A stretch of DNA of 64,000 bases, taken from assembly GCF_037975245.1 (NCBI RefSeq), contig NC_092569.1:6318501-6382500 (forward strand), written 5' to 3'. The notes beneath the pieces are model-generated. The model did no database searches and was not told the origin of the DNA. It saw nothing but the letters and a program-made list of their open reading frames with translations. The stretch is from Apostichopus japonicus (lineage: Eukaryota > Echinodermata > Holothuroidea > Aspidochirotida > Stichopodidae). Below are positions 1,816-64,000 of the stretch, in pieces. A program made the translations under genes and the position numbers. Positions within the stretch are counted from its first letter, which is position 1. The number at the start of each line of letters is the position of its first letter.

Positions 1816-1896
1816 ATGGGGAACCAAAGAAGGGAACTTTTCTGCGTCAACTTTTTCACATTGTTGATAGGATGGAATGTCCTTGCATTAATAACG
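1816..1896 (+). CDS. Gene A exon 1: signal peptide
   Basis: 27 codons from ATG, ending in phase 0 at a consensus GTAAGT donor. The product starts Met-Gly-Asn-Gln-Arg-Arg, then has a hydrophobic core rich in Phe and Leu, as in a secretory signal peptide. It matches exon 1 of genes B-D in position and phase but not in sequence. Confidence 0.75.
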
Positions 1897-4800
1897 GTAA
1901 GTTTTTGAAAAATGTTATGGTCAAGTTGGGTGGAGGAATTTAAGAAAACACTGTGCATTTATTATCACTGCAGTGCTTTTAACACCACGTTGTATTTACC
2001 ATAATTGATACCGAAATACTGTTAACAATTTTAAAAGAAGGTATTCAATAATTTCACGATTTTCGAAATATTTGATATCTCAGCTTTACAATTATCAAAA
2101 GATAAAAATTAGAAATAGTAAAGTTGTCTTAACAGGTGATGTAGGTTAACAATCAGTTGAGTCAAATAGTTATTTTACGAAACACTCTGATGTAGGTTGC
2201 ACTTCTATTTTTTTCACCGAGATAGCAAAATGAACCGCTCTTTTAAATCTATTACACCTGTAATTTGCATACGTCAACAGAACAAAAACAATTTAATATA
2301 TATAACAATTAATATATATTTAACAGATATCACTTCGTATAATATTCATGTTTCAATATTTTTCATAATTAGAAATGTAGCTTGCTTAGCCGACGTGATT
2401 TTTAAAAGTTTGAACCTAACCTTGATCTATGATATGCACTAAATATTGATATTCATCATCATAAGTTTTCCCACTCTGTCGAGTGATGTTTTCCTTTGGC
2501 AGTGAAGAATTGTTCAGCTATGATAACCCCCGCTTGTCAGTCTGAAATAAAATTAGATGATTAAGACTCAGTTTTCAGTATTCAGTTTTAAAATGTCGTT
2601 GTAAGGAACTCGAGTTAAGGCTTTTTTGTATTCATATTGTTAATGTTTCCTATCGGTATGACTATAGGTGTTAAGTAGATGTATTTCAATCCCTGGTTAG
2701 GAGAGTCTCAAATTGTACAATTTATAAGAATCAATAAGAAATGACATTGAACAAGTTCACAATTTTACAATTTTACCGATCCTTTGCTCCTTACCAAAAA
2801 AAGAGAGATATTATTGCATTTTTATTCCTTTTTATATTAAAGGAAATCAAATACTTATAGAATGCTAAATTTCTTTGAAAGCTCGGTAGGTCTATGTGTT
2901 GCTGCATAATCTACAAATAATCTATGCTAGATTAGACAATATTGATATTATAATTCAGTCCTATGTAAAGTCCATATAATTGATTGTAAAACTTGTTCTT
3001 GGATGATGTTCCTCAGCGGTTAGAACTTACACAATGGTGTTACAAAATGTAATAGAAAAGTAAACGCCCGCAATTTAGAACATTGTATTTTTGTTTCACT
3101 GACAGAATGTCTCAAATTGTAAGATGCATATTTCTATTATTATATTTACGCAGTTCTGGAACTCTTAATCTATAGTAGCTCTTTTTCTGAGTAATTTTAC
3201 TATTTCTGGACATCAAAACTAAACAACAAAAAAAGTAGGCATTTACAAGACGTTAAAAGTGTCAAATAATACATCAGTTTGAAGTTTTGCAAGTTGGTAG
3301 CCTATCTATTGAATATTCTGTGGACTTGATATTACTTATATAATGAATAAAAGGCTTGCTCAAGAATCCTTGTGAAAATTTATCGATCTATGTGAGACGC
3401 CATATTAGAAAACATAAAGATATCTTATTTTCAGTTCTTATACACTGTATTGACCACGAACACATCCTACTTACTTGGGCAATTTACGTTGCGAGATGTA
3501 CAAATTGAAACGGTTATAAATCAAACAGTTTTACTTGAACATTCGACCACTTTGTATAGGAAACTAAATTCAACAATATATAACAGCGTTCCTCGTTAAT
3601 ATTCTGTGAATTGCATCTTTGTTTGTGTACAAAATTACTTCTTGGAGCTAGTTTGACAGCGTAAACAGTTTTGAAGGTTTCTTCCTCCGAAAAACAAAAG
3701 TATTGTCTATATGTAAACCAGGCTATATATTTTTTCATAATTTGAAATATTTGGTAAGCTTGGACAGAAGCATTGTTGCTCCGAGAGTGATTGGTTTTTG
3801 AACTGTAAATGCAATGTTTATTTCATATTTACGGTAACAAAGATCAAACTTAGCAAGATGTACACGGTCCTACTTTTGCGACAACCTGTTTCTACGACAT
3901 TTATTCGATTGTCTTCTCAAGTGTACATTTGAAAAGTGATGCCGCACTCTGAAATTTAGTATTTTTAACAAACTATTTCACAAATGATAGTCCGTTTTTA
4001 TAATTTACTCTCAAAGTATCATGTCTGCGTACTCATTTCATATTCTTCTGGGTTTTATCCATGATATCTTTATGGTTTTAATAAATGTAGATTGTCTATC
4101 GAAAGCCTCTTGCATTTTCGTAGAGTATAAAGGAACTTACACTTAAAAACTTCCTGAATAAATAAAAGTATAGTTTTTAACTTGGATAGATCTCAAGAAA
4201 ATATAGGTTAGAAGTGAAATGAGAGGACCACGAATGATTTCATTTAAACAGTATTTCTTTTAGTTGGTTTCACAACTTTTGTGACTAGATAATGTACTCA
4301 AGTTCTGCTTTTGGTTTCGCCTTATTAAGTAGAGTGAACATGTAGAGGTGATATGCTCTTTATTAACGGATTTCTATTTTTCACACATTTGTTAAACAAT
4401 ACAATATGTTTTCAATAACAAAAGTGAACATGAGTTTATATCAGTAAAGAAAAGTTTACGGCAGTATTTTAGTTTTGATTTCAGAGTTTTAGCATCATAT
4501 GAAAGGAACCTTCATTGCAAAACTATTGACGGGATCTAAAATAAGAAAAAGGTTTTAATGAAACTGAATTTGTTTTTAAATTCAAAAACCAAAATATGTA
4601 AAATTGTATGAACAAAGGTAATGATCAACATTTTTACAAATATATGTATCAAATTCAGCCATCATTTTATCAAAAGCTATCAACAATATTTCTTCTGGGT
4701 ATCCAAGCAAGTTATATTCAGTGTAACCTTTTATGAGAATAACATTTTGCATTATTAGAAAGAACTGATATGACCATATCCTAACACTGTAAACTTTATA

Positions 4801-7800
4801 TGGAGTTTGTGTCATGAGACTCATTCTTTAAAATATTACTGTTAACTCTGACGACGCATTTTACTATGTAATGTTAAAGCTAGAAATTCAATGCAGATGA
4901 ACGAAACTGTCGAATTATTGCATTAAATACCAAGTTCATCCGTTATTTCATTTTAGTATTAATCAGACACAAGATCACACTCATTCTGATTCAAGAACGA
5001 ATAATTGTTCTGGTTAACCAAAATGATATAGCTGACAATCCGAAAAGCTTCGCAAGCTTTCAAGTATGCTACGACAAACATAAAGTGGGTAAATATTAGC
5101 ATTATCTTTGACCTCGGCCATTTGGTTACCAATTCACTTACACATCCTTGTTCTAAACCCAATTGGATATCAGTAATCGCTTTTACCAAAATGGCTTGTA
5201 CGGTCACAGAGAAATTGCCTAACAGTATCGGTATAGGCGTATGTATGTTACCATGCACATCAAATGTATGTCGAAGATATATCATACCATTGTGTTCTAA
5301 GAACTTTACAATTACATAGAAAAAGTAAACTAATTTTACACGTGGTGGTAACATTAAGTAGGTTATCGTCCAGTTTATGTTTATTTTAGATTTATATAGC
5401 TTTCCTTTTTTATTGATATAGCATATTTTTAACATTACGTAAAGCTACACATCAGGGGTCACTTAGCCGAATTGTATTCTAAGAACTTTACAAATACATG
5501 ATAAACGTATAAATTGATGATAATGTGATTATTACATATTGGGGTTAACTCGCTTGCAATTTATGTATATTGTAGATTTATACCGCTCTGTTCTGGATAT
5601 ACCAAACAGATTTTTAATGTTACATAAAGGTACACATCAGTAGCCAATGAGTTCACATTATCGGTATAACTTCATTTCATGCTCACAGAAAATATAGCAA
5701 TTTGGTGAGTAACGAAAAGATTAAGACATTAGATTTAACAAATATATCAATAATTAATGTGCACTTATACTTGCCAGAGCGATATTTCTCTATACAAATG
5801 ACTTGTCTTAGCGGCAAAGCGTTGGTTCCGTTCATACGAAACAGCATTTCCATTTTATATCCAGATAAAGGTACTGAGTTACTTCATGAGATGTAATGAA
5901 ATTCATGATAGACTTTTATAGCACATAAGGATTAAGCATCTGTGTTTAATTCCCTACAAAGTCTTTGTTCACTGCGAACGATGTTTTAAAAGCATCGGTA
6001 AAAATAGGATCTCCTGCAAATAGAATGAAAATGTTGCTTGCGGAAACAATGAAATGATAACAAAATGAGAGACATGAAATAAAAACTATAGAGCGGTAAT
6101 TGTCATCTCGCATCACGGCGGATATTTTCGTGTAAGCTCTGCATTGTACATGTTCAAATCGAAACGAAAAACAACACATTTGCCAATTATAACACTGTCT
6201 TGAGAGAGAGAAAAAAGAAGCAAGAGTAGAATGTGTAGCTCAAAATAATAAATTTTCCCATAAGAAGAAAAATCATATACCGACAAGGAAATAGAAAGAG
6301 AAAACAGTGGATTTTGACAGTTGTTGTTATTCTGAGGATATCTGAATCTGATAACAAGAAAAAATATTATTTTGAGGACGATCGGACAGTTTACCTAATA
6401 TGCTTCTCTAAAAAAAAACGGTCCATTGTTTCAGAAAATATTTGTTTACACCAACCTTTCTTACGTTAGTTGTTTCCGTAAATACTATTGTTATATTTTG
6501 ATTATGTATTTGGAATTAACGATAATTTCAATAGTAATGACAATTAACGCATTTAACACTTCATCACAGAATGAATGCTTTAATATTTAATAAAGTGAAA
6601 GGAAACGTAAACGCATGAATATGGTAGAATTGAACCTTTCTTAAACTCCAACAATTCATTGATATTTATGTGCATTGAGGATATAAAGATCAGTCTATAC
6701 GTTTCTTGTCTTATATGTAGGCTTCTGCTGACGTCACAGATCGATCATCGAGTAAGTTAACTTTTGATATTGACTATAAGTATAATTCCTTACACTTTAG
6801 CGTAAAAAGATTCAAAAGACCCTTTACGATTCCAGGTGATAGTATTCGTATTTGAAAGCATCTGCACGTTTGTTCATTAATGTAGATCTTCCGTAAGGAT
6901 AAATTTAACATCAGAAATAAGAAACAAAATTGTTGTAAAAGTTTATATTAATTGTTGAGGGAGGTAGAAATGTCATTCATTGACAGACAATAGCTTTCTC
7001 GATCGTTTGTAATGCTGTTATGATGATTTCATTGGCTCTGAGTTATCGGCGTGTAAACTAACTCGTTTTGATAAAGACCTACATGAAAATATAAAAAACA
7101 AAATAAAACAATTAAATAACTCTGCCTTAGCAGCAACTCTGGTAGACATGATGACAATTAAACATTTACAGGTTATTATCGGAGAGTAACATATACCTCG
7201 GATAGATAGTCCATAGATACTGATGGTTGCAATTCTCGCAAGAAAAAAAGAGAGTTAAGGTTGCTTTTATCCCTGTTGTAGGTTTATCGTACTTTCTATT
7301 CCAATCAACTGAGAACCCGAAAGATTGCCAAGAAATCCTCAATACATGTTCAAATACCCAAAATGCATCTGGTGTCTATAAAATCAAACCTGCTGGTTTC
7401 CCAGAGCCGTTCGAAGTATACTGTGATAAAGACTTACGCAGTGATGGATGGACGGTAAGTTGACAAAGTTAGATAAGCTTTTAAATACTTTCAAAACTTC
7501 ATAATATAATACTGGACTTGTAAAACAAATAGACCAACGGAGACCTAAAACACTCAGGAACTTTATTACTGAACGTTTTTCCTGAGCCTCTTCGAACAAC
7601 AGGAGACCCAATTTTGATTGTACTTCATAAAGCAGCATTAAAATTGCATACCAACGTAGTAAATGAAGTTGATAAGTCATGGTTCTGTCAAATATCGAGA
7701 GCGAAATGTTCAACTTTCCGACCTAATTGTATTTTATGCATGTTGAAACGAAATATTATTAAGAGTGACGTAGTGTTGACGAAACGAATCAACTTCACTA

Positions 7801-10800
7801 CTAACTTGCCAATTTAAAGGAGTTACTGGTGAATAAACAATGTGGTAGTTATATTGAAGAAAAACGTGTTTCAAACTGCTAGTTTAAAATCTCATCTCGA
7901 TATCTTGCCTGCAACTTGAGATATTGTTGATTAAATTACTTATGTTCTTATAATTCTCTTGTTGATTTATTCTTGAAATCTGATAAATTTAGAAGTTAAC
8001 TTAATTGTCAAAGTTCTCAATACTAAGAATTTACATCAAAATATATCTTTGTTGTAGAAATATTATTTTGTTCCGTGGATAAATGATTGACAATTTATTA
8101 AAAAGGATATTTATTTTATCACCTGAATTGCCATGATGACAACATCCATTCTGCTGTGGCCAGATGGATTGGCAAAATGTCATGGAAACTAAAAAAAAAA
8201 ACAATTCTTCGCGTTGGAAACATCCTATGAGAATGTAATTTTCGCCTAAATATTAAAAAAAAATCAGCAATTTTGCTATACAATCAGTTCAAGCCACCAC
8301 AAAAAACTCTTTATTGTGCAAGAAATAAACATTGGCCAACCTCTTTCTTTTTATAACGACAGGTAATACAGCGACGGACGAATGGATTCATCAACTTTAA
8401 TCGGAATTGGGACGATTACAAGCACGGTTTTGGATTTCTGGGAAGTGAATTTTGGTTAGGAAATGAGAAAATTGCTCACCTAACAAATCAAAAGAAGTAT
8501 CAACTTCGTATGGATTTTACGAATGCTACAGGGCACTCGTATCATGTGACCTACGACGATTTTCGTATTGTTGATGAATGGAGCCAATATTCTATTCAAA
8601 GTCTTGGAGAGGAAGGTGGCAATGCAGGTAAATGTTCTGTGTTTACATTTCTGTTTTATCTCAGGGAAGATCGATTTTCATGTTATCTCACGTTATCGTT
8701 ATAACCTATGTTAAAAGAGGCGAATGTGGGTACGTGCCACGTTTCTCTTAAATTGTTCAAGGTTTCCTTTCAGAATGTTTTAATAGAAGTATTGAAACAT
8801 ATATTCATCACCCAAGAAGAGAAAAACTTCATAGCACCAAAATTTGAACAGAACTATGCCTTAACGTACTAAAACAATACAAAAATATCCTTGCTGTTGT
8901 CCAGATTGTGTTGCGTACCTTGTATATACCGAAAATTGTTTCAATCCCCCGTCCCCCGCCCATCTGTCTGTACTGTTGGTGATAAGGTTGTATCGGAAGC
9001 AATTGCAAATTTTCTAAACCATTTAATAATTTCAATGCGTCAAAGATGTCACAAATACCAAGTCGATTTTAAGATAATATTTTCCTTAACTTTACCAGAT
9101 CCAGACCCAGAGTGGTGTCCATCGAATACGAGGTTTTCTAACAGTACATGCGAGAGACGTTGTACCGAACCCAATACGTGTATCACTTCAGGTTCTATGG
9201 AATCGGAAAGATGCATCTGTCCAGACGGTTATATGATACAAGGAGAGGACTGCATACCTGAAAGTCAGTGTGGATGCTTTTTACAAGAAAAGGGAAGAGT
9301 GCTTAATATACGTCAATGTATCATTGAGACGTTTGTTTGTCTTTTTTTCTCATTCAAACTGCTCCAAAAATATATGCTGATTGTTTAAAATTCATCCAGA
9401 AGATAATAATAGTATGGAAGATTCTGCAGCACTAGACAATTCCTCTTTTTCCGATACCTTTTTACTTGTATATACTCTTGGCATAAATTATTCTATGAAA
9501 TATTAATGAGCGTTACGTGAAAACAACACTGGTTGTGTCAATTTGACTTAAATTTATTAGTGACAAGTGATTCAGCAAATAGTTTTTGATAAACTGAAAT
9601 TGTTAAAATCTATTTTCCACGACAGGACGATGAATCATTTGTCAATTCTGACTGTACTTACCGTGTAAACTGCATCGACAATCGGCTGAGTTATGAAGAT
9701 GACTACCGATGTAGTGACAATGCAACGTGTCAGGAGAGAGACGGAGTGCGAGGATGTATTTGCAACCATAGGTTTGAAGGAGATGGGGTAACGTGTATCG
9801 AACCCGCAAAGGATTGCTACGAGATATACAAAACAGGGATCCATGTCGATGGGGTTTATACCATCTATCCTTCTGGCTGGGAGGATTCTGGCTTCCAGGT
9901 CTACTGTGAGATGTCAACAGACGGAGGAGGATGGACGGTAAGTTTTCACATTTCCCAAGAGAGTGATAACTTCTAACCATCCTGATCGAGTCAACGGAAA
10001 AATGATTTAACATTACAAACTTGAGAGTTTTGTTGTGCTGAGTATTTTTCTTGGACGAGAGATGTCCGATGAACTTACGATGTTTTATCGAAACTAGCCC
10101 TCAAATGCGTAAGCCATGTATCGTCTTACATTGAACAGCTTCTAAAAACAAATATCAGTATCTTAACATAACGGTAAACATAACGGTAATTTCAATACCT
10201 TTAATGGTTGGCCTTGTTTGCAGTGCTTCGCGAACGAAACATGATCAATGTTCTGAGATAATTTTAAGAGTAACACTCTGTGGCAGAATTTTTTTGCTGG
10301 CGATAAACATCTCTATACCTTTCTCAGATAAAATAATGCATAGGCACCACTCGTATATTAAGTACTCAAAACACACGCGTGTTTACCGGTAAACTAGTTG
10401 CGAACCAAATTCCATGAAATGGTACGAGAACACAATGGAACTATATTTAACTTTATATCCATATTTATATATTTACATGTTTCTAGGTTCTCCAGAGAAG
10501 GAGGTCTGGTTCAGTTAACTTCTATCGTGGTTGGAATGAATACAAGGACGGGTTTGAAAGTCCAAGCAGTGATCACTGGCTTGGTAACGACAAGATTCAC
10601 GACCTTTCAGTTCAGAGGTCATACCAACTTAAGGTGGATCTGACAGATTCAGCTGGTTCACAGTATTACGCCCTCTACTCCACATTCAGCATTGGAGACG
10701 AGCGTGACAAATATACGCTCTCTTTAGGCTCGTACTCGGGAAATGCAGGTTGATATTTTTGGCAAAACTTAATTTATTAAGCTTTGCTTTGATAACGTTA

Positions 10801-12382
10801 GTTTGTAGTTTTGTTTTCATTTCACAATAAACTCCACAAACTTGCTCGAAAAAATGAAACTTGCTAAGTGGCACAAAATATATAAACATTTAATATATAT
10901 CCCATTTTCCTTTTTAAACTTGTTATTACTCTTAATCTACTACATCAGTATTGCCTTTAATGATGATTTTAATAAACCCCCAAGACATCGTGGTTCAACC
11001 AATATGCCATGATTACGTCATTTCCTAGAGAATTAGAATACAAAATATGTTAATCTTAATAACTTACAAAATGCATGCGGTAGATAAGATGAAATGTCTT
11101 AATAATGGTCATTTTTTAACTTTTCCGAGCTGCAATCAAGATTGATATATTTTGACCAACTGTACATCTGCATTACGCACTCATTGGAAGATGCAGCCTA
11201 TCCCATTTATCATAATTAAAACAACAAATGAGCCTATAATGCTGTTCAAAACAAACGAGCATAGCTTGCTGATCGACAAGACACGAACAATGATGAGCTT
11301 TACTGTTCAAACTGAGAAAAATGGAAATTCAGAACACTTTAAACATTAAACCTTGGCACAAAAACTGAATCTGAAACTGAATAATACCTGCGGGCTATGG
11401 TTTATTAATATTAACGAAATATCGCTTGCAGTGTCACCGTGATACCCGATAGAGTTGCTTGGTTTGGCGGGATCGCGTCCACTACATCTCTCTGTTTTGT
11501 ATTTGTTTTGCGTTTTTTATATATAGAAAATGTCAGTGTTCTTATGATGTCCCTTTTAACACTTTGTTATAATATCATTAATGTGAACAAATACAATAAT
11601 GTACTTAATTTAATCGAAAGTGACTCATGCACAACACACTCATGGAAGTGATGATCTTGACACCATATGATGTGATGTTCAATCGCACATTTCTTTTACT
11701 TCTGATGAATTGAGTAAATTGGAAAACCTGTATATCTACGAACCTGGCTAACAAAAAGAATTGAGCGCATAATTTCGGACCGAAGTGGTGATAAATAATA
11801 TCAATTCGCCCCCCCCCCACCCACCCCATCTCACTACAAATAACCGTGTTTCCTTTCAGACATATAACATACTAACATACCAGCATGTATTTATTATACT
11901 TGCAAGCATGTTTAAATATAAACTAAGGTTAAATACGGTTATTAAATAAAATCTTCAAGATGTTTAACTTCATAACGGAACTGAAATGAAAATTCGTAGT
12001 CTATTATGGTTTGAGTTTTTCAGTTCCCTTTGTATGCAATGCTGATTAAATGCGTCCTCATTTCCATCCTCTTTTAGGTTATAACTCCATGAACTGGAAC
12101 AACGGAGATCCGTTTAGCACGCACGATAGGGACAACGATGGCACAAATTTTGTCAACTGTGCTGAGAAGCATCGCGGTGCCTGGTGGTACCCGCATCGTA
12201 ATTATTATAGTTATAATTACTGCATTTATTTTAGTCAAAGTGGACATTACTACTCTTGCACTGATTCTAACCTCAACGGAGACTACCAGTACAGCGGCTC
12301 CCGTGGAATCTTCTGGTATAATCTTCCTGGGAACGATTGCCGCCTCAAGGGTACAAAAATGAGGATACGGCCAGTTGGATAA
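1816..12382 (+). CDS. Gene A: secreted half-FReD/TIL/EGF-like/FReD protein
   Basis: Eight exons: 1816-1896, 6721-6751, 7282-7454, 8363-8627, 9099 to 9298 or 9311, 9626-9937, 10487-10748, 12078-12382. Encoded order: hydrophobic signal peptide; short linker; first fibrinogen-related domain (Cys-Gln-Glu-Ile start, Phe-Glu-Val-Tyr-Cys, Gly-Trp-Thr) that stops where the usual terminal exon would begin; TIL cysteine-rich domain; EGF-like domain with the Gly-Asp-Gly-X-Thr-Cys ending; complete second FReD with an Asp-Arg-Asp-Asn-Asp calcium-type motif, Gly-Ala-Trp-Trp and Ser-Asn-Leu-Asn-Gly. All junctions except exon 5 to 6 keep phase. There the donor homologous to the paralogues (after 9311) gives a rapid stop, whereas a weak GTGCTT donor after 9298 keeps the frame and gives 542 aa. 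This is the most diverged of the four paralogues. A secreted lectin-like role is inferred from the family. Confidence 0.85.
1897..6720. other. Gene A intron 1
   Basis: A 4.8-kb AT-rich intron with no supported gene on the + strand. It holds an imperfect tandem duplication at 5285-5650. It also holds the longest minus-strand open frame of the window (4959-5435), which I do not call a gene. Confidence 0.7.
5285..5650. repeat. Imperfect tandem duplication, about 180 bp
   Basis: The segment beginning with a 'ctaagaactttacaa' core near 5297 recurs near 5478. Both copies run on through a 'gatttata' block to a 'taca(t/c)aaaggtacacatcag'-like end near 5450 and 5640. The copies are diverged and were read by eye. 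Confidence 0.65.
6721..6751 (+). CDS. Gene A exon 2: linker
   Basis: A 31-base exon in phase 0-1 between a GTAG acceptor and a GTAAGT donor. It encodes Ala-Ser-Ala-Asp-Val-Thr-Asp-Arg-Ser-Ser, sharing the Asp-Val-Thr core with exon 2 of genes B-D. It is shorter than their 46-base exon. Confidence 0.65.
7282..7454 (+). CDS. Gene A exon 3: start of FReD 1
   Basis: Phase 1 in, phase 0 out. It encodes the N-terminal FReD segment with Pro-Lys-Asp-Cys-Gln-Glu, Gly-Val-Tyr-Lys-Ile-Lys-Pro, Pro-Phe-Glu-Val-Tyr-Cys-Asp and a terminal Asp-Gly-Trp-Thr before GTAAGT. Confidence 0.9.
7455..8362. other. Gene A intron 3
   Basis: AT-rich intron with no supported feature. Open frames reading out of exon 3 into this segment are read-through only. 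Confidence 0.7.
8363..8627 (+). CDS. Gene A exon 4: middle of FReD 1
   Basis: A 265-base exon, phase 0 in and phase 1 out. It encodes Val-Ile-Gln-Arg-Arg, a Trp-Asp-Asp-Tyr-Lys-His-Gly-Phe-Gly motif, Glu-Phe-Trp-Leu-Gly-Asn-Glu and Leu-Thr-Asn-Gln-Lys-Lys-Tyr, all FReD core motifs. The next exon is TIL, not the FReD terminal exon. Confidence 0.92.
9099..9311 (+). CDS. Gene A exon 5: TIL cysteine-rich domain
   Basis: Enters in phase 1 (G|AT). It encodes a trypsin-inhibitor-like cysteine-rich module from Trp-Cys-Pro-Ser to Gln-Cys-Gly-Cys, with nine cysteines by my count against eleven in gene C. The donor homologous to genes B-D follows 9311 and ends in phase 1, which clashes with the phase-0 start of exon 6 and would give a stop within three codons. 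A weak donor after 9298 keeps the frame, so the end is uncertain. Confidence 0.75.
9626..9937 (+). CDS. Gene A exon 6: TILa-like, EGF-like and start of FReD 2
   Basis: A 104-codon exon, phase 0 at both ends. It encodes a short Cys-rich TILa-like stretch, an EGF-like domain (Cys-Ser-Asp-Asn-Ala-Thr-Cys to Gly-Asp-Gly-Val-Thr-Cys), then Lys-Asp-Cys-Tyr-Glu-Ile-Tyr and Val-Tyr-Cys-Glu-Met to Gly-Gly-Gly-Trp-Thr, the N-terminal FReD segment. Confidence 0.9.
10487..10748 (+). CDS. Gene A exon 7: middle of FReD 2
   Basis: Phase 0 in, phase 1 out, 262 bases. It encodes Val-Leu-Gln-Arg-Arg-Arg, Gly-Trp-Asn-Glu-Tyr-Lys-Asp-Gly-Phe and His-Trp-Leu-Gly-Asn-Asp-Lys, ending Tyr-Ser-Gly-Asn-Ala-Gly. The donor GTTGAT is weaker than its neighbours. 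Confidence 0.9.
10749..12077. other. Gene A intron 7
   Basis: AT-rich intron with a poly-C/poly-purine tract near 11808-11826. No supported gene. Confidence 0.7.
12078..12382 (+). CDS. Gene A exon 8: terminal exon of FReD 2
   Basis: Enters in phase 1 and ends at TAA 12380-12382. It encodes Asp-Arg-Asp-Asn-Asp-Gly (calcium-type loop), Asn-Cys-Ala-Glu, Gly-Ala-Trp-Trp-Tyr, an expanded Asn/Tyr-rich insert, Ser-Asn-Leu-Asn-Gly-Asp-Tyr and a Met-Arg-Ile-Arg-Pro end. The insert before the Ser-Asn-Leu-Asn-Gly motif makes it longer (305 bases) than the exon of gene B (263) or C (251). Confidence 0.93.
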
Positions 12383-12751: not shown

Positions 12752-12757
12752 AATAAA
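12752..12757 (+). terminator. Candidate polyadenylation signal, gene A
   Basis: The first clear AATAAA downstream of the gene A stop codon, 370 bases after it. The cleavage site cannot be seen from sequence. Confidence 0.35.
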
Positions 12758-20332: not shown

Positions 20333-20410
20333 ATGATCAGCAAATTGTGTACATTTTTTGAAGTTTATCTTTTCTTGTGGACAACCGGTTGTCTCTTTTC
20401 ACATCAAGTG
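20333..20410 (+). CDS. Gene B exon 1: signal peptide
   Basis: 26 codons from an ATG preceded by 'caacatcaag', phase 0, GTGAGT donor. Met-Ile-Ser-Lys-Leu-Cys followed by a hydrophobic core and Thr-Thr-Gly-Cys, typical of a signal peptide. The same exon occurs in genes C and D. Confidence 0.85.
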
Positions 20411-37750: not shown

Positions 37751-37828
37751 ATGATCAGCAAATTGTGTAAAGTTTTTGAAGTTTTTCTTTTCCTTTTGAC
37801 AACAGGCTGTCTCTTTTCACATCGAGTG
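37751..37828 (+). CDS. Gene C exon 1: signal peptide
   Basis: 26 codons, phase 0, GTGAGT donor; identical to exon 1 of gene D. An 18-base segment present upstream of the ATG in genes B and D is missing here, with short direct repeats at the junction. Confidence 0.87.
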
Positions 37829-43800: not shown

Positions 43801-46800
43801 ATCAAAAGAAGTATCAATTTGTGATTGAGATGACTTTATCAAACGGTTCCTTCATCCGGGTTTCTTACGACAACTTCCGCATTAGTGATGAGTTCAGCAA
43901 CTTCAAGTTTGTCAGCCTCGGACAGTTCTCTGGAAGAACAGGTAAGTTATATCAATATTTCTGCTTAATATCCTTATGTGTGTTTCCCTTAGCTGAGGTT
44001 TCAGGTCAAATTACCTCTAGTTCTCTACAGATGACAATTTGGAATTCATAAAGCCCTTACAGGCGCGGATTCGGGGGTCTGTTGTTGTACCCCTCCCCCA
44101 TCCCCTCTAATTTCAATGTCACATTAAAAAGGTTGTGGTTATTGGAAAATTATTACGTAGAGACCGAGTGTTAGACATAATTTATAGCCTAATTATGCCT
44201 TCAATTGTGCAATTTAATCTCTAAAACCTTATTCTTTTCCGGGTGAGTAACCGCAGATCCTCCTATTTTTGAATCTGCTCTCAACAACAATGAGCAACGC
44301 CCTATACTGTCGTGGATCTGCTACTGTTTCATCATTCACTTATACAACTTCCACCTTCATTTTGAAATTTTTATTACTATTTGGTGAGACTGTAACTTCA
44401 TGAAATTACTCCTTCTTTTTCTGGATGACAACTAATGAATTCAGTTATTCAGAAAAGCAGTTGTCATAAATGTTTAGAGCTTATCTGAGAACAATAAGAA
44501 GCTATGATCATGTCGCTAGAGAACATTTACACCCGGCCATCTTTTGCTTTCCTGATGGCGTGTGTAGTTATATCGGCTATTAACACAAGTTTTACAGCAT
44601 GGTCATTACAATGAATATACATAACGGAGTTTAAATCATCATAATGTTTCAATTTGAGGTATTTTCTTAAGCCTACCGACATATTTCATCCATGCAGACG
44701 TAATAACTATGTGCCCCTACAACATGGTCTATAGAAACTGTAGTATTTCCTGCCAGCGGACTTGTGGTGCTCCAGAAATGTGTCAGGCTGGGATCTGTAA
44801 TGAAGCCGAAGCCTGTGTTTGTTCCGATGGCTACTTCACGAAGGAATCAGACTGTGTACCTCAAGAACAGTGTGGATGTTACGAATCAGAGGGACAAACA
44901 GTTATTCCAGTCAGTTGTTTTTCATTTCATTTGTCTAAATTTTGGCAGTCAAATCTGCGGGTATATGTCAAAGACTGTGCAATGCGACAGTTTTCCAACA
45001 ACAGTAAAGTTCACGACTCTTTTCCATAACGACAGTCACTGTTCATACTGTTTATAGTAAAACAATGAGCGCAATATAAGTCCAATCAAACTCCAATATA
45101 TAAATTATAAGTTCATTTAACTATACAGTTATAGGAATACCTGTAAAATTATAATATACTCCGCGTAGAGAATTTTAGTGCTTAACAAGACATACAACCG
45201 AACATTATTTACCATGAATGATAATAAACCCACCATCAGGCGTAAAATGCAAACTGTAACTGTAAAAAGGGACGTAAGAATTAAATTTTGTTTTTCAGGA
45301 AAGTGGCTCTTACGTGAACCTTAACTGTTCAAGAAAAGGTGTTTGTACCGACGGGCAGATCACGTGGGATGAAGCATATGCATGCAGTCCTAACGCAGTT
45401 TGTGACGACAGGGACAACATAACACAATGCTATTGTACTGGTGGCTACAGAGGAGACGGTGAAAATTGCACGAGACCACCTAAAGATTGTCAGGAAATTT
45501 ACGATGATGAATCTAGGGACAACGGTATATACAAAATCAAACCAACCGGCTGGACTGGCGAGGCTTTTGAGGTTTACTGCAACATGACTGACGGAGGAGG
45601 ATGGACGGTAAGTCATTCCATTAATTAACACCCATTGCTATTTGCACTGATTTCACTGTACAGATAATGCATTGCAGTAAGCTTCACTACCTACAGTGTA
45701 TGACATTGTACCACAATGACCACACTATACTATACTACACTGCACTAAAACAAATACACTAAATTACCCTTGCTGCTAGTAAAATACAATGCATTACATT
45801 GCTTTACAAAACACTAATTCTACACAAAGTGCAAAAGTGATAAAGTATAGCCTACATTTTGAGGGATGTAGTAACTAGACATAACACGTGTAAATCACAA
45901 ATTTGTGTAGTGATCGTTATTGATACAAGGTAGTACATAACCATGGATAATCTTGCGTAATGGATTTGCTATGAACTACATTTATCATATATCAAAAAAT
46001 TCTGTTCCATCCTACATAGAATACAAAACGACGAATTAAATATGCAAATAGATTATATTCTTTTTGTGAAAACATAATGAAATGTATTTTCCGTAAGAAA
46101 TATAACCACTCTGAATCCATTTCTAAGTATCTGCTTCCTTACGTTTCAGTGATACCTTCAAAGCGATTTGTGATTTTGTCAAATTTTCATTTCAGGCTTA
46201 TATCTGAAGTGGAATGAAATATCTACATAGTGTACACTTCTTTAATGACAATGTTTCAACGAGGTTTTTTCTTTATCAGTTCCTTCAAATTCGTTTAAGT
46301 GAACGTTTTTTCATCTTCAATGTTTATTTAAATGTTGACAATTTCGTCAATTTTTTTCTATATTTGGTCATAACAAAAGTTTTCCTCTTATTCACACATT
46401 TAAACAAAGGTTTTTCAGCGTCGTTTGGATGGAACCGTGGATTTCTACCTCGGATGGGACAGTTACAAAGAAGGTTTTGGAGATTTAGACCACGAGTTTT
46501 GGCTTGGAAATGATAAACTTTCTACCTTGACCAATCAAAAGAGATATGAAATCAGGATTGATATGGTGAACAGTTATGGCGCTCCATACTATGCCAAGTT
46601 TGACTACTTCCGGATTAATGACGAAAGCGATAAATATCGGTTTTCTCAACTTGGAACCTATAGTGGAACAGCGGGTTTGTTACAATTTATTTGGTTACAT
46701 AAACATCATTTAGATATCTGCACAATTCTACAACTATGAATGCTTTAACGGTATGCGCATAGTTCAATGTTCTTTATTGTGTATTATCCTTGGAATGTCA

Positions 46801-47898
46801 TATTACAAGGTTATTCTACATATATTTGACCGAAGACTTGAATTAGTGAATGATTTGCAGTGATAATGCAAATACAATATAAGAACATGATGCTGATGAG
46901 TGGATGGATTGATTTATCAATATTTCTCTTCTTTAGATTGTTATCCTTCCTTTCATACATCACTAAAAAAACACCATGTCTCTGTTCCGATTTCAGACCT
47001 ACCCATATACACTACAACTAAATACGGACATGTATTAAATACAAACACGTCTAAGCAACAATCTTGCACCATGTGTTCAATACTTTCTTCGAATATACAT
47101 TTGCACACAATCTACATTAACACCATCGAACTGAATCAGTTGGGCAAAACCAAGTTTTAGGCCGCACTGTTTGGTTTTGTGTAATTTAGTCGTACCAATG
47201 ATGCCGTATCAGTCATCATGACTTTACTACGTTTTATTTCATTGAAAAACAGTACGAAATTGTTGATACACCTACTGACACGTCAATTATTTAAATGGAG
47301 TATTAATAACTTCATGTTCTTTTTATGTATTTTTGTTTTATTTTTTGTACTTAATTATTCAATGTTGCAGCATGTGTGATTTCAATAGTACCGATTATAA
47401 TATGAAATATGATAATTATTATTACTAAACGATAAAAAACATTATGGTAAGAAACTAAAAAATAATACAAGATAATATTTAATTTGCAATTAGTGGAAAA
47501 TGAATTAGAAGCGATAGCTCATTAATGAAACTCTTACTAAATAAAACTCTAAACGCCGCCTTTTATTTCAGCAACATCAGATGGTCTGACCTTCAGTAAC
47601 ATTACACGGAACGCCAAACTGTTCTTTTCTTTGTCCTCATTTTACAGACTCTCGCAGCAACCCTGATGGTTATGCTCTTCGTTATCACCTGAACTACCAG
47701 TTCTTTACCAAAGATAATGACAAGAGTAACTGTGCGGTTTCTTATCACGGTGCCTGGTGGTATAATGGTTGTACAACTTCCAACCTTAATGGAGACTACC
47801 ATGCCAGCCGAGGCGCTGAAAGCAGTCCTCATTGGGACTACTTACCCGGCAGCTACTTCAACATCAAATTTACAGAAATGAAGATTCGTCCCTTTTAG
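37751..47898 (+). CDS. Gene C: intact secreted half-FReD/TIL/EGF-like/FReD protein
   Basis: Exons: 37751-37828, 42718-42763, 43105-43274, 43677-43941, 44698-44909, 45299-45607, 46410-46674, 47648-47898; total 1596 bases, 531 aa, all junctions in phase. Residues: signal peptide 1-26; linker 27-41; first FReD part 46-187, lacking the terminal exon; TIL 191-246 (Cys-Pro-Tyr-Asn-Met to Gln-Cys-Gly-Cys, eleven Cys); TILa-like 258-285; EGF-like 286-314; full FReD 318-531. The second FReD has a calcium-type loop four residues shorter than in gene B and Cys-Thr in place of the usual Cys-His before Ser-Asn-Leu-Asn-Gly. It is flanked by homologous genes B and D in the same orientation. A secreted recognition protein by family; ligand unknown. 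Confidence 0.92.
37829..42717. other. Gene C intron 1
   Basis: A 4.9-kb AT-rich intron, nearly identical to gene D intron 1. Open frames at 38887-39477 and 40791-41054 are not supported as genes. Confidence 0.7.
42718..42763 (+). CDS. Gene C exon 2: linker
   Basis: 46 bases, phase 0 to 1. [15 protein letters not shown] plus one base. One base differs from gene D (Phe to Leu). Confidence 0.82.
43105..43274 (+). CDS. Gene C exon 3: start of FReD 1
   Basis: 170 bases, phase 1 to 0, from Ser-Ser-Tyr-Phe-Phe-Tyr to Gly-Gly-Trp-Thr. Five bases differ from gene D by eye, two of the changes altering the amino acid (Phe/Ile and Leu/Ser). Confidence 0.93.
43677..43941 (+). CDS. Gene C exon 4: middle of FReD 1
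   Basis: 265 bases, phase 0 to 1. Val-Ile-Gln-Arg-Arg-Ile-Asp-Gly to Phe-Ser-Gly-Arg-Thr. Five bases differ from gene D, three of them changing residues. Confidence 0.94.
43942..44697. other. Gene C intron 4
   Basis: 756 bases against 191 in gene B. After a shared 'aggcgcggat' word it holds about 560 bases absent from gene B. A degenerate transposon is possible but no clean ends were found. Confidence 0.55.
44698..44909 (+). CDS. Gene C exon 5: TIL cysteine-rich domain
   Basis: 212 bases, phase 1 to 0, GTCAGT donor. Intact TIL module with eleven cysteines, identical by eye to gene D exon 5. It occupies the phase-1 junction normally filled by a FReD terminal exon. Confidence 0.93.
45299..45607 (+). 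CDS. Gene C exon 6: TILa-like, EGF-like and start of FReD 2
   Basis: 309 bases, phase 0 at both ends. EGF-like Cys-Ser-Pro-Asn-Ala-Val-Cys to Gly-Asp-Gly-Glu-Asn-Cys, then Lys-Asp-Cys-Gln-Glu-Ile-Tyr to Gly-Gly-Gly-Trp-Thr. The first 271 bases are identical to gene D by eye. Confidence 0.94.
46410..46674 (+). CDS. Gene C exon 7: middle of FReD 2
   Basis: 265 bases, phase 0 to 1. [12 protein letters not shown] to Tyr-Ser-Gly-Thr-Ala plus one base, GTTTGT donor. Confidence 0.93.
46675..47647. other. Gene C intron 7
   Basis: AT-rich intron without the SINE-like insertion seen in gene B intron 7. No supported gene. Confidence 0.65.
47648..47898 (+). CDS. Gene C exon 8: terminal exon of FReD 2
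   Basis: 251 bases, phase 1 in, TAG at 47896-47898. Twelve bases (four codons) shorter than in gene B, all within the calcium-type loop: Lys-Asp-Asn-Asp-Lys-Ser-Asn-Cys. Gly-Ala-Trp-Trp, Ser-Asn-Leu-Asn-Gly-Asp-Tyr and Met-Lys-Ile-Arg-Pro-Phe are kept. Confidence 0.95.
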
Positions 47899-51714: not shown

Positions 51715-52019
51715 CACTCGATACACACAGAGAACACAGTAACTACTATAAATCTTTAAGTTTTGTTCCCCAGTGAAAACTGGACCGTTTATAAAACGGT
51801 AGCATGGGCTATTAAAATTACAGTATGTACTGAGGATATGAATAATCCCAACAAATCCAGTTTGATGCATTTTTTGGATTACACATATCGACAGTTCTTA
51901 CTATAATTGTAATATCACATGCAACCGATGTATCATATTTGTCAGCACGAACCAGTTTTTAATATGGTACAAAACTCTAATATTTACAGTAGTTACGGTA
52001 GTTTATGTGTGAATCGGTT
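51715..52019. mobile_element. Palindromic MITE, copy 3, in inverted orientation
   Basis: Same family; its right end carries 'gtgtgaatcggt', the complement of the left end of copies 1 and 2. Flanked by GATAACTA (51707-51714) and GATTACTA (52020-52027), an 8-bp duplication with one mismatch. Unit C has the empty site near 34040-34055 ('gatataattactaatg'). Confidence 0.8.
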
Positions 52020-52398
52020 GATTACTAACGTTAAGCATGTTCATGTCTCGATGGCCGCTTGCTCAATGATGACATCGTTTTGCTCGCACACTATGATGAG
52101 TCGGTCTGAATGTTACCTTTCTCAGGAATGTTGGGCTTCATTTTGCTGAGGGGTGTCTACACCACCGGGGCTTTTTGCCATCCCATACTTGATCTGATTT
52201 ATTTCCTTTTTCATTTTGCAAATCATATTCATCCGCCGGTGAATTTACCGTGCATTATTCATAGGTTAATGCAGGGTCAGCTGACGACAACGGGCCAATC
52301 AGATTCAAGAATTGTTAAGAAATATGAGTCAAAACTACCTAATAATCTCTATTAAATGAGAAATAAAATAAACTATTCGAGTTCAATGTGCAAAGATG

Positions 52399-52607
52399 AA
52401 CTATCAGTTCACTACCAAAGATAGTGACAACGATATTCATAGTAATAACTGTGCCTTTACCTGTTACGGCGCCTAGTGGTAATATAATTGATTAGCGACT
52501 ATTCCGACCTCAATTCCATCTACCATGCTACTTAAGTTAGTGATCGCAGTATTGAATGGTATAATTTACCTGACAGTGTTGTAACATCAACTTTTCGTCG
52601 CTATTAA
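52399..52607 (+). pseudogene. Decayed FReD terminal exon upstream of gene D
   Basis: Homologue of the relic at 34426-34634 with the same 5' truncation and the same TAG and TAA stops in the Gly-Ala-Trp-Trp region. It was already dead before units C and D separated. Confidence 0.85.
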
Positions 52608-56371: not shown

Positions 56372-56449
56372 ATGATCAGCAAATTGTGTAAAGTTTTTGA
56401 AGTTTTTCTTTTCCTTTTGACAACAGGCTGTCTCTTTTCACATCGAGTG
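56372..56449 (+). CDS. Gene D exon 1: signal peptide
   Basis: Identical to gene C exon 1. The 5' flank keeps the 18-base segment missing from gene C. Confidence 0.87.
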
Positions 56450-59400: not shown

Positions 59401-62400
59401 TGAAATAAATTTAATTCATTTAGTTTACGCACTGCAGTATATCGGTGGATGCTTATTTCATGGAACATATGTTTTGTAAAACGTTTACTATTATGATATT
59501 GTTGTTCTTGTCTGCTTGTACGTACCGTAGACAACTCAATGAAAGTATCTGTTTGAATTTGATTCAGTCATTTCCGCTGTGAGAGAATTTTCTATATAAA
59601 TTGATCTCTTAGAGAATAAAACCGTTCCCTAGTTTCGAACGAAATCGGGAAAATATATTATAATGCATTATAACTCAATATTAAAGATTCCACGTTATAG
59701 TTAAGGTGACACCCCTGAGTGTTATTCTTAGACAAAGGTATATATATTACATAAACTAAACCGAGAAATTAAGTAAATTACAGCATGTAGGATTTTCTTT
59801 TTAGATCAGAAAATAGTCAAATCGTTGAATCATTTTGAAAACCTTCTATCACGGACAATCCCTGTTGAAAACTGAGTATCTTTAATTGTTAACAAAAATA
59901 TTTTTGTTTACAATAAAGATTAATATAAAATTAAAACAGCTAAATAATATTTGGAAAGCAAATGGAGCGTGTTTCTATGTTATACTGCATTCGGAACGAA
60001 AGTGTTGAGAGCACGGTTGCCTCATACATGTAATATTATACCAAAAATTCTCTACAATATCTCTGTTGGCTAATTTAGGGTTCTCGTTGTAATACTTGAT
60101 ATTACTATTATTGGGCTCTTCTAGGCGCCGTCGTTCTCCCTCTGATAAATTTTGTTACCGCAAGGGCTGTTATTACAAGCGGTTTAAGATAGAGAACTTA
60201 GCTAAACGTTCTAAATATTAACATATTAATAAATATTGTACATTTTGTTTATTCATAGTGTCTGTTATTTCAAACGTTTTATCAAATTGAGTTTTTGTCT
60301 CTTCAAAGGAAAAGGAAAAATCTTGTTTATATATGGTTTATTCTTCTCTCAAATTAAATCATTGTACTTTATATATATATATTTACTGCCAATATAAGTA
60401 TTGTGATATATTGTTTCAACTTCCCAAACTGAATTTATTAGCGTATTGTGTTTGTTTTATTTGTGCAAACCAGGAAACTATTGTTAAATTATACTTTGTT
60501 TAAGTTAAAGAGGCATAGATACATATCAATGTACTAGATGGAAGGTCCACATCAGAGTAATTGAGTTTTACCTTTACGTGTTTGTCTATTTTGGCTTCGC
60601 ACGCATCTAAATCAAATATGCGAATTTCTATATACTAACTTCTTAATTTTATACAACGTTGCTAGTATCTAGGTTTATTAGGGTGATAGTTCTCTCGCTG
60701 AATAAATATTTGTTTCAAATGATATACTCTCCTTTTATTTCTTTTTGTTATACTGCGTGCATGTCAATGGCTCTATATTTACTATCAAAAGGAAGTTAAA
60801 TAATTGGAAGTTAACTGGATATGAGTTTGGTCAACGGATTTATCATTCGAAACAATAGTATGATTATTCACCATTACTGGCAGTCATTTTCATTGTCACA
60901 GAACTAGAACTAGAACTAGAAGTTACAAGTTGCTCCCCAACCCACTTAACCCTTGTTTTGTTTCAAACACAACGGTATTGTCATCACAAACCCTCCTAAC
61001 ACAAAAAACACCCAAATTCCCGTCATGTGTACGACAGTTCTGATAGTGAGCCATATATGCTATAGTTTACTTTATCATACTTTTATATAAAATACATGAA
61101 TACGTTTAATAGCCATTCGACTGAGCTGTTACTTTTTGTATTAATTTCCGTTTGACAGGATGCTCTAGAGACAATCAATGATGTCACCGGTGATAGTAGT
61201 TTAGGTAAGTGATTTTATATTTATGCTGTTTCTTCCTAGGCGGTCGTTATTACCGTTCAGTAATAACTATGTTAATGTTTATGAAAGGGTATATTTTACA
61301 CGGCACCATTTGAATCGAACGTTTTGTGTACTTCAAACGAACAGATGGGTATCAGCAGGGAGTTGTTATGGACAGGGAGTTGTTATGGAAAAAAAACAGC
61401 GGAAACATTCATTACACCGTATAAAATACGTTGAATCATTGGATTCATCGCATGTAACTGGTACATAGGCAACAGTGGTAATTATATGTAACCTAAAATA
61501 CCAATGTGACTCAGCTCACAAAGAAATCCAATTTTGTTTTAACGTACTAGGTTCGTCGTACTTCTTCTATCAACAATCGGAATACCCGAGAGATTGCAGA
61601 GAAGTCCAGGAGGAATGTTCATCTCAAACCTCTACTGGTGTCTTCGTGATCAAACCAGATGGCTATTCGGAGCCTTTTGAGGTTTACTGTGATAACGCAG
61701 ACAGTTCTGGCGGATGGACGGTAGGTTTCAACAGTGTGTTCACTTTACAAGTTTCTTGTCATCTTTCTTTGGTACGAGTGGATGAATCATAGCATATATA
61801 ATAGCATATAGGATGTCAAATGTATGTAACTGTAATTATCAGGCTTAAATTTAAGACAAACGTTAAATATTTCCCTCATTGTGGTTTGCACTCTTTTTTA
61901 AAACAGAACCTGCATCCCCGATTGGACATTGGTGCCCGACAATTCCCTCGCCAAACCTTTCTCCCCATTCTGTAGATTCGTACTAACATTATGCACAATA
62001 TGTGCATCCTGATATGAAGCAGTACGCAATATTTGTCAAAAGAGCGGTTTCTAGTGACGTTTATTTCACAATACACATAACCTGCTTAGAATTCAGTTTC
62101 TAAATCATTAACACCATTAGGTAATACAGCGTCGCATTGACGGTTCCATCGACTTCAGCCGTGACTGGGACAGCTACAAGTCTGGTTTCGGCTTTCTAGC
62201 TCAGGAATTCTGGCTCGGCAATGACAAACTTTCTTACTTTACCAATCAAAAGAAGTATCAATTGATGATTGAGATGACTTTATCAAACGGTTCCTTCATC
62301 CGGGTGTCTTACGACAACTTCCGCATTAGTGATGAGTTCAGCAACTTCAAGTTTGTCAGCCTCGGACAGTTCTCTGGAAGAACAGGTAAGTTATATCAAT

Positions 62401-64000
62401 ATTTCTGCTTAATATCCTTATGTGTGTTTCCCTTAGCTGAGGTTTCAGGTCAAATTACCTCTAGTTCTCTACAGATGACAATTTGGAATTCATAAAGCCC
62501 TTACAGGCGCGGATTCGGGGGTCTGTTGTTGTACCCCTCCCCCATCCCCTCTAATTTCAATGTCACATTAAAAAGGTTGTGGTTATTGGAAAATTATTAC
62601 GTAGAGACCGAGTGTTAGACATAATTTATAGCCTAATTATGCCTTCAATTGTGCAATTTAATCTCTAAAACCTTCTTCTTTTCCGGGTGATCCTCCTATT
62701 TTTAAATCTGCTCTCAACAACAATGAGCCACGCCCTATACTGTCGTGGATCTGCTACTGTTTCATCATTCACTTATATAACTTCCACCTTCATTTTGAAA
62801 TTTTTATTACTATTTGGTGAGACTGTAACTTCATGAAATTACTCCTTCTCTTTCTGGATGACAACTGATGAATTCAGTTATTCACAAAAGCAGTTGTCAT
62901 AAATGTTTAGAGCTTATCTGAGAACAATAAGAAGCTATGATCATGTCGCTAGAGAACATTTACACCCGGCCATCTTTTGCTTTCCTGATGTGTGTAGTTA
63001 TATCGGCTATTAACACAAGTTTTACAGCATGGTCATTACAATGAATATACATAACGGAGTTTAAATCATCATAATGTTTCAATTTGAGGTATTTTCTTAA
63101 GCCTACCGACATATTTCATCCATGCAGACGTAATAACTATGTGCCCCTACAACATGGTCTATAGAAACTGTAGTATTTCCTGCCAGCGGACTTGTGGTGC
63201 TCCAGAAATGTGTCAGGCTGGGATCTGTAATGAAGCCGAAGCCTGTGTTTGTTCCGATGGCTACTTCACGAAGGAATCAGACTGTGTACCTCAAGAACAG
63301 TGTGGATGTTACGAATCAGAGGGACAAACAGTTATTCCAGTCAGTTGTTTTTCATTTCATTTGTCTAACTTTTGGGCAGTCAAATCTGCGGGTATATGTC
63401 AAAGACTGTGCAATGGGACAGTTTTCCAACAACAGTAAAGTTCACGACTCTTTTCCATAACGACAGTCACTGTTCATACTGTTTATAGTAAAACAATGAG
63501 CGCAATATAAGTCCAATCAAACTCCAATATATAAATTAGAAGTTCATTTAACTATACAGTTATAGGAATACCTGTAAAATTATAATATACTCCGCGTAGA
63601 GAATTTTAGTGCTTAACAAGACATACAACCGAACATTATTTACCATGAATGATAATAAACCCACCATCAGGCGTAAAATGCAAACTGTAACTGTAAAAAG
63701 GGACGTAAGAATTAAATTTTGTTTTTCAGGAAAGTGGCTCTTACGTGAACCTTAACTGTTCAAGAAAAGGTGTTTGTACCGACGGGCAGATCACGTGGGA
63801 TGAAGCATATGCATGCAGTCCTAACGCAGTTTGTGACGACAGGGACAACATAACACAATGCTATTGTACTGGTGGCTACAGAGGAGACGGTGAAAATTGC
63901 ACGAGACCACCTAAAGATTGTCAGGAAATTTACGATGATGAATCTAGGGACAACGGTATATACAAAATCAAACCAACCGGCTGGACTGGCGAGGCTTTTG
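56372..64000 (+). CDS. Gene D (3' truncated by window end): half-FReD/TIL/EGF-like/FReD protein
   Basis: Exons: 56372-56449, 61159-61204, 61551-61720, 62121-62385, 63128-63339, and 63730 to the window edge (first 271 bases of exon 6). All are open and in phase with the same splice signals as gene C. Encoded so far: signal peptide, linker, first FReD without terminal exon, intact TIL, TILa-like and EGF-like domains and the start of the second FReD. Compared with gene C by eye: exon 1 identical, exon 2 one difference, exons 3 and 4 five each, exons 5 and 6 none. Exons 7 and 8 are expected just beyond the window. Confidence 0.9.
56450..61158. other. Gene D intron 1
   Basis: Near-identical to gene C intron 1 apart from one loss of about 180 bases near 58603 and small indels. 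The open frame at 59129-59479 is rejected as a gene. Confidence 0.7.
61159..61204 (+). CDS. Gene D exon 2: linker
   Basis: 46 bases, phase 0 to 1, GACAG acceptor and GTAAGTG donor; ends Asp-Ser-Ser-Leu plus one base. Confidence 0.82.
61551..61720 (+). CDS. Gene D exon 3: start of FReD 1
   Basis: 170 bases, phase 1 to 0. Carries Val-Ile-Lys-Pro-Asp-Gly-Tyr-Ser where gene C has Val-Phe-Lys-Pro-Asp-Gly-Tyr-Leu. Confidence 0.93.
62121..62385 (+). CDS. Gene D exon 4: middle of FReD 1
   Basis: 265 bases, phase 0 to 1. Leu to Phe, Phe to Leu and Val to Met relative to gene C around the Thr-Asn-Gln-Lys-Lys-Tyr-Gln motif. Confidence 0.94.
62386..63127. other. Gene D intron 4
   Basis: 742 bases, near-identical to gene C intron 4, with the same extra segment absent from gene B. 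No supported gene. Confidence 0.65.
63128..63339 (+). CDS. Gene D exon 5: TIL cysteine-rich domain
   Basis: 212 bases, identical by eye to gene C exon 5, without the 8-base deletion of gene B. Confidence 0.93.
63730..64000 (+). CDS. Gene D exon 6, partial
   Basis: TTCAG acceptor; the 271 bases present are identical by eye to gene C exon 6 and stop within Gly-Glu-Ala-Phe of the second FReD. Confidence 0.92.

Follow-up and report, generated by a model that had tools for sequence, protein, structure and literature searches.

In ficolins, a collagen-like repeat precedes the fibrinogen-related domain (FReD), and in tenascins FNIII repeats lie between the EGF-like modules and the FReD. The FREPs of the mollusc Biomphalaria, a diversified FReD family with a proposed role in recognition, are reported to carry one or two immunoglobulin superfamily (IgSF) domains ahead of the FReD (PMC7588048). 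The expansion of FREPs in the sea cucumber Apostichopus japonicus is already published: they are described as its most expanded family, arranged in tandem mainly on linkage group LG02 (PMC5638244), and the accessible portion of that paper mentions no domain architecture, i.e. no half-FReD, TIL or variable terminal exon. Here, we describe four same-strand tandem genes (A to D) in a 64,000-nucleotide window of the A. japonicus genome (contig NC_092569.1, hereafter C9; C9:6318501-6382500 of a 671.58-Mb assembly in 35 contigs). They belong to a large family, located mostly on one chromosome, in which a FReD devoid of its C-terminal part is followed by TIL, TILa-like and EGF-like modules and a complete FReD. 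The family resembles the published expansion in its species and in the concentration of tandem FReD genes on one linkage group or chromosome. We did not meet the half-FReD-TIL-TILa-EGF-FReD architecture in the literature searched, most subscription papers and supplements being outside that search.

Genes C (37751-47898) and D (56372-66317, counted from the window start, with exons 7 and 8 past its end, in L001) are intact eight-exon models with open frames of 531 amino acids each and exon-end phases of 0,1,0,1,0,0,1. Their exons code, in order, for a leader, a linker, the N-terminal and middle parts of the first FReD (FReD1-N and FReD1-mid), the TIL domain, the TILa-like and EGF-like modules together with the N-terminal part of the second FReD (FReD2-N), and its middle and C-terminal parts (FReD2-mid and FReD2-C). 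The FReD middle exon has a phase-1 end, which matches the phase-1 start shared by the TIL exon and the FReD terminal exon. Units C and D share two stretches of ~5.3 and 5.4 kb, with identities of 96.5 and 94.8%, respectively. An earlier reading made from the letters alone (the sequence-only reading), whose coordinates stopped before the end of gene D, had proposed this domain order, the entry of the TIL exon in the phase of the FReD2 C-terminal exon and the same-strand tandem arrangement, and all three are borne out. Its four eight-exon paralogues survive in part, as the models of only two of the four genes are intact. All eight exon slots are present in gene B; however, its TIL exon carries a net deletion of 8 bp that causes a frameshift, and the gene is therefore probably a pseudogene or the source of a shortened product. 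Gene A is diverged, with seven of eight exons located, the leader among them as a candidate only; the linker was looked for and not found, and no standard donor in the right phase is present where the TIL exon should end.

Pfam searches with the 531-residue model matched FReD1 to positions 2-130 of the 221 positions of PF00147, i.e. a half-FReD, and FReD2 to positions 2-220, i.e. a complete domain. Because its match ends after position 130, FReD1 would be without the ligand part and, to judge from homologous domains, without the final strand of the central sheet, a strand that can reportedly be removed from the fibrinogen gamma module without compromising the structure (PMC7659954). The TIL domain (PF01826) scored 26.6 bits in the whole model and 29.9 in the corresponding piece (cut-off 24.5), and its ten cysteines are invariant across 12 aligned copies. 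The TILa-like module (PF12714, 23.9 bits in the piece, cut-off 27) and the EGF-like module (EGF_3, 21.8 bits in the whole model and 24.6 in the piece, cut-off 28.5) fell below their cut-offs; the cysteines of their exon are conserved across 15 copies. The leader comprises 26 residues and is hydrophobic, as judged by hydropathy only. The model contains no Ig family and no FNIII family (E 0.01), and no Gly-X-Y repeat or collagen-repeat family; thus, it is not of the molluscan FREP, tenascin or ficolin type, respectively. The sole collagen-named match was COLFI (16.2 bits, cut-off 26.2), with no stretch passing, and no VWD or C8 families were found. Five structure models of the TIL exon disagree, the best having a mean predicted local distance difference test score (pLDDT) of 77 and the other four 65 to 39. 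The best one gave weak fold matches to the TIL modules of MUC5AC, NAP5, a frog TIL peptide and von Willebrand factor (best E 0.059). The model of the TILa/EGF/FReD2-N exon (pLDDT 88) matched N-terminal parts of FReDs (best E 0.008).

FReD2 resembles FIBCD1, the ficolins and tachylectin-5A, which have a complete FReD with a cysteine pair around the ligand site: the pair is conserved in FReD2, and its ligand-site positions can be aligned with those of FIBCD1. In contrast to those lectins, the sea cucumber family adds a half-FReD and a TIL-TILa-EGF stalk, and several of its ligand-site positions vary between copies. Tenascins likewise combine EGF-like modules with a C-terminal FReD, and tenascin-R, followed by FIBCD1, is the nearest to FReD2 by sequence among solved structures; unlike tenascins, the sea cucumber model has two FReD copies, one of them cut short, and TIL-TILa. 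In von Willebrand factor, mucins and FCGBP, TIL is also followed by a TILa-like module, whereas here this pair is joined to FReDs. The diversity of the family, in contrast with that of molluscan FREPs, is seen between germline copies.

The family is far larger than the four window genes. Exon searches scored 150 of 562 (TIL), 1605 (TILa/EGF/FReD-N) and 803 (FReD1-N) candidates, so the counts are lower bounds. Among the best 150 matches for each exon, 143, 137 and 145, respectively, are located on C9. FReD1-N was found 0.9-3.3 kb upstream of 79 of the 150 TIL matches, on the same strand, which amounts to at least 78 loci as gene B was counted twice; within 4.5 kb of the same 150 matches, it was never found downstream of TIL or on the other strand. 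Among the matches listed, 52 form full triples, and 86 clusters have FReD1-N plus TIL or the next exon. L025 has a FReD1-N exon that is partnerless among the matches listed, yet its TIL exon is present on reading; other partnerless matches may likewise result from considering the best 150 only. We also picked 15 loci from the match lists to span distant subfamilies on C9 and C20. In all 15, the order on one strand is FReD-N, FReD-mid, TIL, TILa/EGF/FReD-N and FReD-mid, and a terminal FReD exon comes next in 14; in the 15th, the stretch ends before that point. L024 and L025 agree with this order as far as their stretches reach.

In the 21 TIL-bearing family loci read, TIL is joined to a FReD middle exon through phase 1. 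This upholds the chimeric FReD family and the phase-1 TIL join of the sequence-only reading; its idea that a TIL exon took over the slot of the FReD terminal exon fits less well than another origin. We infer that a [FReD-N + FReD-mid] module was set before an existing TIL-TILa-EGF-FReD gene, which fits the data better for the following reasons. The unit is in phase 1 at both ends, so that its insertion or repetition would leave the reading frame intact. The 20 FReD1 middle exons form one side of a branch (support 98/96), with FReD2 middle exons intermingled with those of other genes (6 changes), in a tree of few columns and many unresolved forks; the first middle exon of L019 was labelled FReD1-mid by position, its tblastn match being to the FReD2 seed. 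The same genome has TIL-TILa-EGF-FReD genes with no FReD1 in the fetched span (L023, L030 and L031), and one locus with tandem half-FReDs in the order N-mid, N-mid, N-mid-C and no TIL detected (L022, C9:22408501-22418500, positions 610-6218). It also has TILa/EGF/FReD genes with no TIL detected (L028 and L029) and plain FReDs (L026 and L027). L030 is nested inside a family clade, and a loss of FReD1 is a possible alternative there. Matches of the 531-residue query near 22.52, 22.72, 23.19 and 23.23 Mb suggest further copies similar to L022. L023 (C9:21136001-21144000) has on its minus strand a 399-residue open frame (6617-7816) in which a Ser/Thr-rich, repeated, mucin-like stretch runs into TIL, upstream of the TILa/EGF and FReD exons.

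All exons are under constraint, and those of FReD1 are under purifying selection. We determined mean ratios of non-synonymous to synonymous substitution rates (dN/dS) in a close subfamily (6-7 genes) and across subfamilies (six genes from four subfamily regions). The close-subfamily values are 0.26 for FReD1-N, 0.25 for FReD1-mid, 0.29 for TIL, 0.24 for TILa/EGF/FReD2-N, 0.17 for FReD2-mid and 0.37 for the terminal exon. The cross-subfamily values are, in the same order, 0.22, 0.13, 0.31, 0.21, 0.15 and 0.18, dS of the terminal exon being near saturation. The TIL exon of gene B and the TILa/EGF exon of L011 were excluded from the close set, gene D was left out as a near-copy of C, L035 has no FReD2-mid, and stops were masked in the terminal exon of L008 and in FReD2-mid of L033. 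In both sets, dN is highest in the terminal exon. It reaches 0.123 there as compared with 0.037 in FReD2-mid (17 and 16 genes), and is higher in all 120 shared pairs. With a home-made codon model, M2a was favoured over M1a, i.e. sites with omega >1, for the terminal exon (p=0.005) and not for FReD2-mid (p=0.78; 18 and 17 genes).

We consider it somewhat probable that these genes constitute a germline recognition repertoire, in which a probably secreted chimeric FReD family pairs a variable FReD2 head with a constant half-FReD. The exons would be spliced into one mRNA and the proteins released into coelomic fluid or mucus. FReD2 may bind acetylated or otherwise marked glycans, by analogy with FIBCD1, ficolins and tachylectin-5. 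The terminal exon, with the ligand site, would be the part that varies between copies, and FReD1 and the stalk would be the more constant part, probably serving for oligomerization or for docking to cells or partners. An immune role would be in line with reports that many FReD proteins are present in the coelomic fluid of H. tubulosa (PMC12119288), and that one FREP is induced by lipopolysaccharide (LPS) in the intestine of H. glaberrima (PMC2702171). In the latter species, a FIBCD1-like gene is reported to mark one coelomocyte cluster (PMC11925454). A bolder version has FReD1 accepting the free C-terminal strand of a neighbour's FReD2, such that, once bound, the members of this inherited constant/variable repertoire could assemble into polymers or nets through strand exchange. 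Its strand-exchange part is speculation from anatomy, and we think this version improbable.

The claim of a recognition family made by the sequence-only reading is supported in part by the divergence peak in the ligand-site exon. The ligand site itself was examined by comparison with FIBCD1. The residues His382, His396, Tyr405, Arg412, Asn413, Cys414, His415 and Tyr431 of FIBCD1 were taken as ligand residues (PMC10825690), to which Ala432 and Trp443 were added subsequently (PMC3908420). In the first subfamily, the eight matched positions have a diversity of 0.485 as compared with 0.201 overall (p about 0.0003, first of 86 shifts); the match of Tyr431 spans a length difference in the alignment. 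A replicate was fixed beforehand on the 22.3-23.3 Mb subfamily (20 exons, six tied-score copies being left out). It went in the same direction without reaching significance (0.451 vs 0.312, p=0.085, rank 10 of 73), and the positions matching Arg412, Asn413 and His415 are variable again. Among the sets tried afterwards, adding Ala432 and Trp443 gave p values of 0.0001 and 0.02 for the first and second subfamilies, the core acetyl pocket alone 0.047 and 0.058, and omission of Tyr431 0.0003 and 0.22. As a separate observation, in several of the 20 terminal exons L051-L070 (C9:22.37-23.25 Mb), the loop after the first cysteine, beside the ligand site, differs in length among copies by up to 5 residues, mostly added tyrosines.

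Besides the outcome of the replicate and the effect of omitting Tyr431, several points weigh against a recognition repertoire. The set of FIBCD1 residues was drawn up after the variable columns were visible. In the terminal exon, dS is raised as well (0.340 vs 0.183 in FReD2-mid, higher in 106 of 120 pairs), and part of the diversity may therefore stem from gene conversion or deeper coalescence. Its dN/dS is just 0.31-0.37 overall and 0.18 across subfamilies, where that of TIL is higher (0.31), and dN exceeds dS in only 3 of 136 pairs. The codon model ignores recombination, which can mislead a site model, and a single terminal-exon site has a posterior >0.8. Among 17 aligned copies, 16 have a full-length calcium loop; genes C and D, the intact ones, are without four of its residues. 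No transcript or protein of the complete architecture was seen. Finally, expression of the LPS-induced intestinal FREP of H. glaberrima was reportedly unchanged in coelomocytes after LPS (unpublished data cited in PMC2702171), and the A. japonicus FREPs are linked to regeneration (PMC5638244).

Another explanation is that exons 1-4 and 5-8 are two adjacent, co-duplicated genes, one for a short half-FReD protein and the other for a TIL-TILa-EGF-FReD protein. FReD1-less genes of the latter kind do exist, as described above, and the distances between FReD1 copies are congruent with those between FReD2 copies (Mantel r 0.907 for 19 loci and 0.813 for 15 loci), which is as expected of one gene and would equally be produced by co-duplicated neighbours. 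However, every tabulated family locus has an in-phase donor at the end of FReD1-mid, located where expected or one codon away. Moreover, the gap between FReD1-mid and TIL is ~185-867 bp in 21 loci, and only ~185-215 bp in five of them. None of the 21 gaps contains a FReD C-terminal exon, found downstream of TIL in 19 of the 21 loci, or a leader-like exon with a phase-1 donor. Such short, empty gaps leave scant room for a 3' end, a promoter and a leader, and we regard two genes as very unlikely. Processed retrocopies joining exons 4 and 5 were also sought with the whole 531-residue query, and no long multi-exon match was found among the 105 matches listed (81 scored candidates). One match that runs 27 residues past the edge of exon 4 (C9:8555024-8555383, query 98-214) was taken as an intron overrun and rejected as a retrocopy, because in L009 the TIL exon lies 0.7 kb further on; a few other matches overrun an exon edge by ~10-14 residues. 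Open-frame lengths of 250-480 residues among these matches were not counted as evidence.

The products could instead be matrix or repair factors similar to tenascins or angiopoietins, working in regeneration rather than in the recognition of microbes. This would agree with the reported up-regulation of tandem A. japonicus FREPs in visceral regeneration (PMC5638244) and with the proximity of FReD2 to tenascin-R, ahead of FIBCD1. Yet no FNIII family was found in the model, and a divergence peak in the ligand exon over many tandem copies would be unusual for a structural or signalling factor, which makes this a lesser possibility in our view, albeit the strongest of the alternatives. Another option has TIL as the effector, a protease inhibitor that the FReD heads would direct at microbial or host proteases. 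Its invariant cysteines, its mean dN/dS of 0.29-0.31 and the presence of the inhibitors NAP5 (row 3) and Ascaris inhibitor (row 18) in the fold search are compatible with it. Against that, TIL followed by TILa also occurs in von Willebrand factor, gel-forming mucins and FCGBP, all in the same fold lists, and in those proteins TIL-TILa is not known to be inhibitory. With the fold matches so weak and the five models in disagreement, an inhibitory TIL appears distinctly unlikely.

Table 1. Exons of the four window genes (window numbering)
Gene	Feature	Position	Strand	Basis
A	Candidate leader exon, phase-0 donor GTAAGT; membership in gene A inferred	1816..1896	+	
A	FReD1-N exon	7282..7454	+	
A	FReD1-mid exon	8363..8627	+	
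A	TIL exon, provisional 3' end	9099..9304	+	
A	TILa/EGF/FReD2-N exon	9626..9937	+	
A	FReD2-mid exon	10487..10748	+	
A	FReD2-C exon and stop	12078..12382	+	
B	Exon 1, leader	20333..20410	+	
B	Exon 2, linker	24648..24693	+	
B	Exon 3, FReD1-N	25067..25236	+	
B	Exon 4, FReD1-mid	25503..25767	+	
B	TIL exon, frame broken by net 8-bp deletion	25959..26162	+	
B	Exon 6, TILa/EGF/FReD2-N	26566..26874	+	
B	Exon 7, FReD2-mid	28937..29201	+	
B	Exon 8, FReD2-C and stop	30562..30824	+	
C	Exon 1, hydrophobic signal-peptide-like leader	37751..37828	+	hydropathy, gene model
C	Exon 2, short linker, phase 0 in, phase 1 out	42718..42763	+	gene model
C	Exon 3, FReD1 N-terminal part	43105..43274	+	gene model, Pfam
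C	Exon 4, FReD1 middle part; donor GTAAGT, phase 1 out; no FReD C-terminal exon ahead of TIL	43677..43941	+	
C	Exon 5, TIL domain, phase 1 in, phase 0 out	44698..44909	+	gene model, Pfam, alignment, fold search
C	Exon 6, TILa-like, EGF-like and FReD2 N-terminal part	45299..45607	+	gene model, Pfam, structure model
C	Exon 7, FReD2 middle part	46410..46674	+	gene model, Pfam
C	Exon 8, FReD2 C-terminal (calcium/ligand site) part and stop; calcium loop four residues shorter than in the other 16 aligned copies	47648..47898	+	
D	Exon 1, leader	56372..56449	+	gene model
D	Exon 2, linker	61159..61204	+	gene model
D	Exon 3, FReD1-N	61551..61720	+	gene model
D	Exon 4, FReD1-mid	62121..62385	+	gene model
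D	Exon 5, TIL	63128..63339	+	gene model
D	Exon 6, TILa/EGF/FReD2-N	63730..64000 in window, continues to 64038	+	gene model
D	Exons 7-8	64843-65107 and 66067-66317, outside window (L001)	+	gene model

Decayed FReD terminal exons with stops are present at 303-530, 34423-34604, 52396-52488 and 70385-70477 (window numbering, the last one in L001). They follow the terminal exons of genes B, C and D and that of the gene preceding A (L008) at a distance of ~3.6-4.7 kb, as if the repeat unit had formerly held a second terminal exon. The three inside the window were set aside as relics in view of their stop codons. An element of ~300 bp that matches itself in both orientations and resembles a small mobile repeat lies between the genes (32916-33222, 50904-51193 and 51715-52021). 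Outside the window, some family members look damaged as well: the terminal exon of L008 (5391-5648) has an in-frame stop, and the TILa/EGF exon of L011 (3482-3700) is shortened. Contig C35 is a mitochondrial genome of 16,099 bp. Among five genetic codes applied to it, table 9 (echinoderms) yields the residues usual in COX1, and its 16S gene and the genes identified by eye as ND1 and ND2 are on the + strand, an orientation shared with echinoids and holothuroids. Elsewhere in the assembly, five separate pieces similar to mitochondrial COX1 at C29:14745-31219 are either nuclear copies or fragments of the assembly.

A half-FReD kept under purifying selection raises the question of the role of a FReD without its ligand-binding part. 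If a recognition repertoire is indeed what these genes encode, the statement that FREPs are expanded in sea cucumbers would give way to a specific design, that of one chimeric half-domain gene present in at least dozens of copies, mostly on one chromosome. Its divergence would peak in the exon that harbours the sugar-binding site of related lectins, and the family would represent an echinoderm counterpart to the molluscan FREPs.

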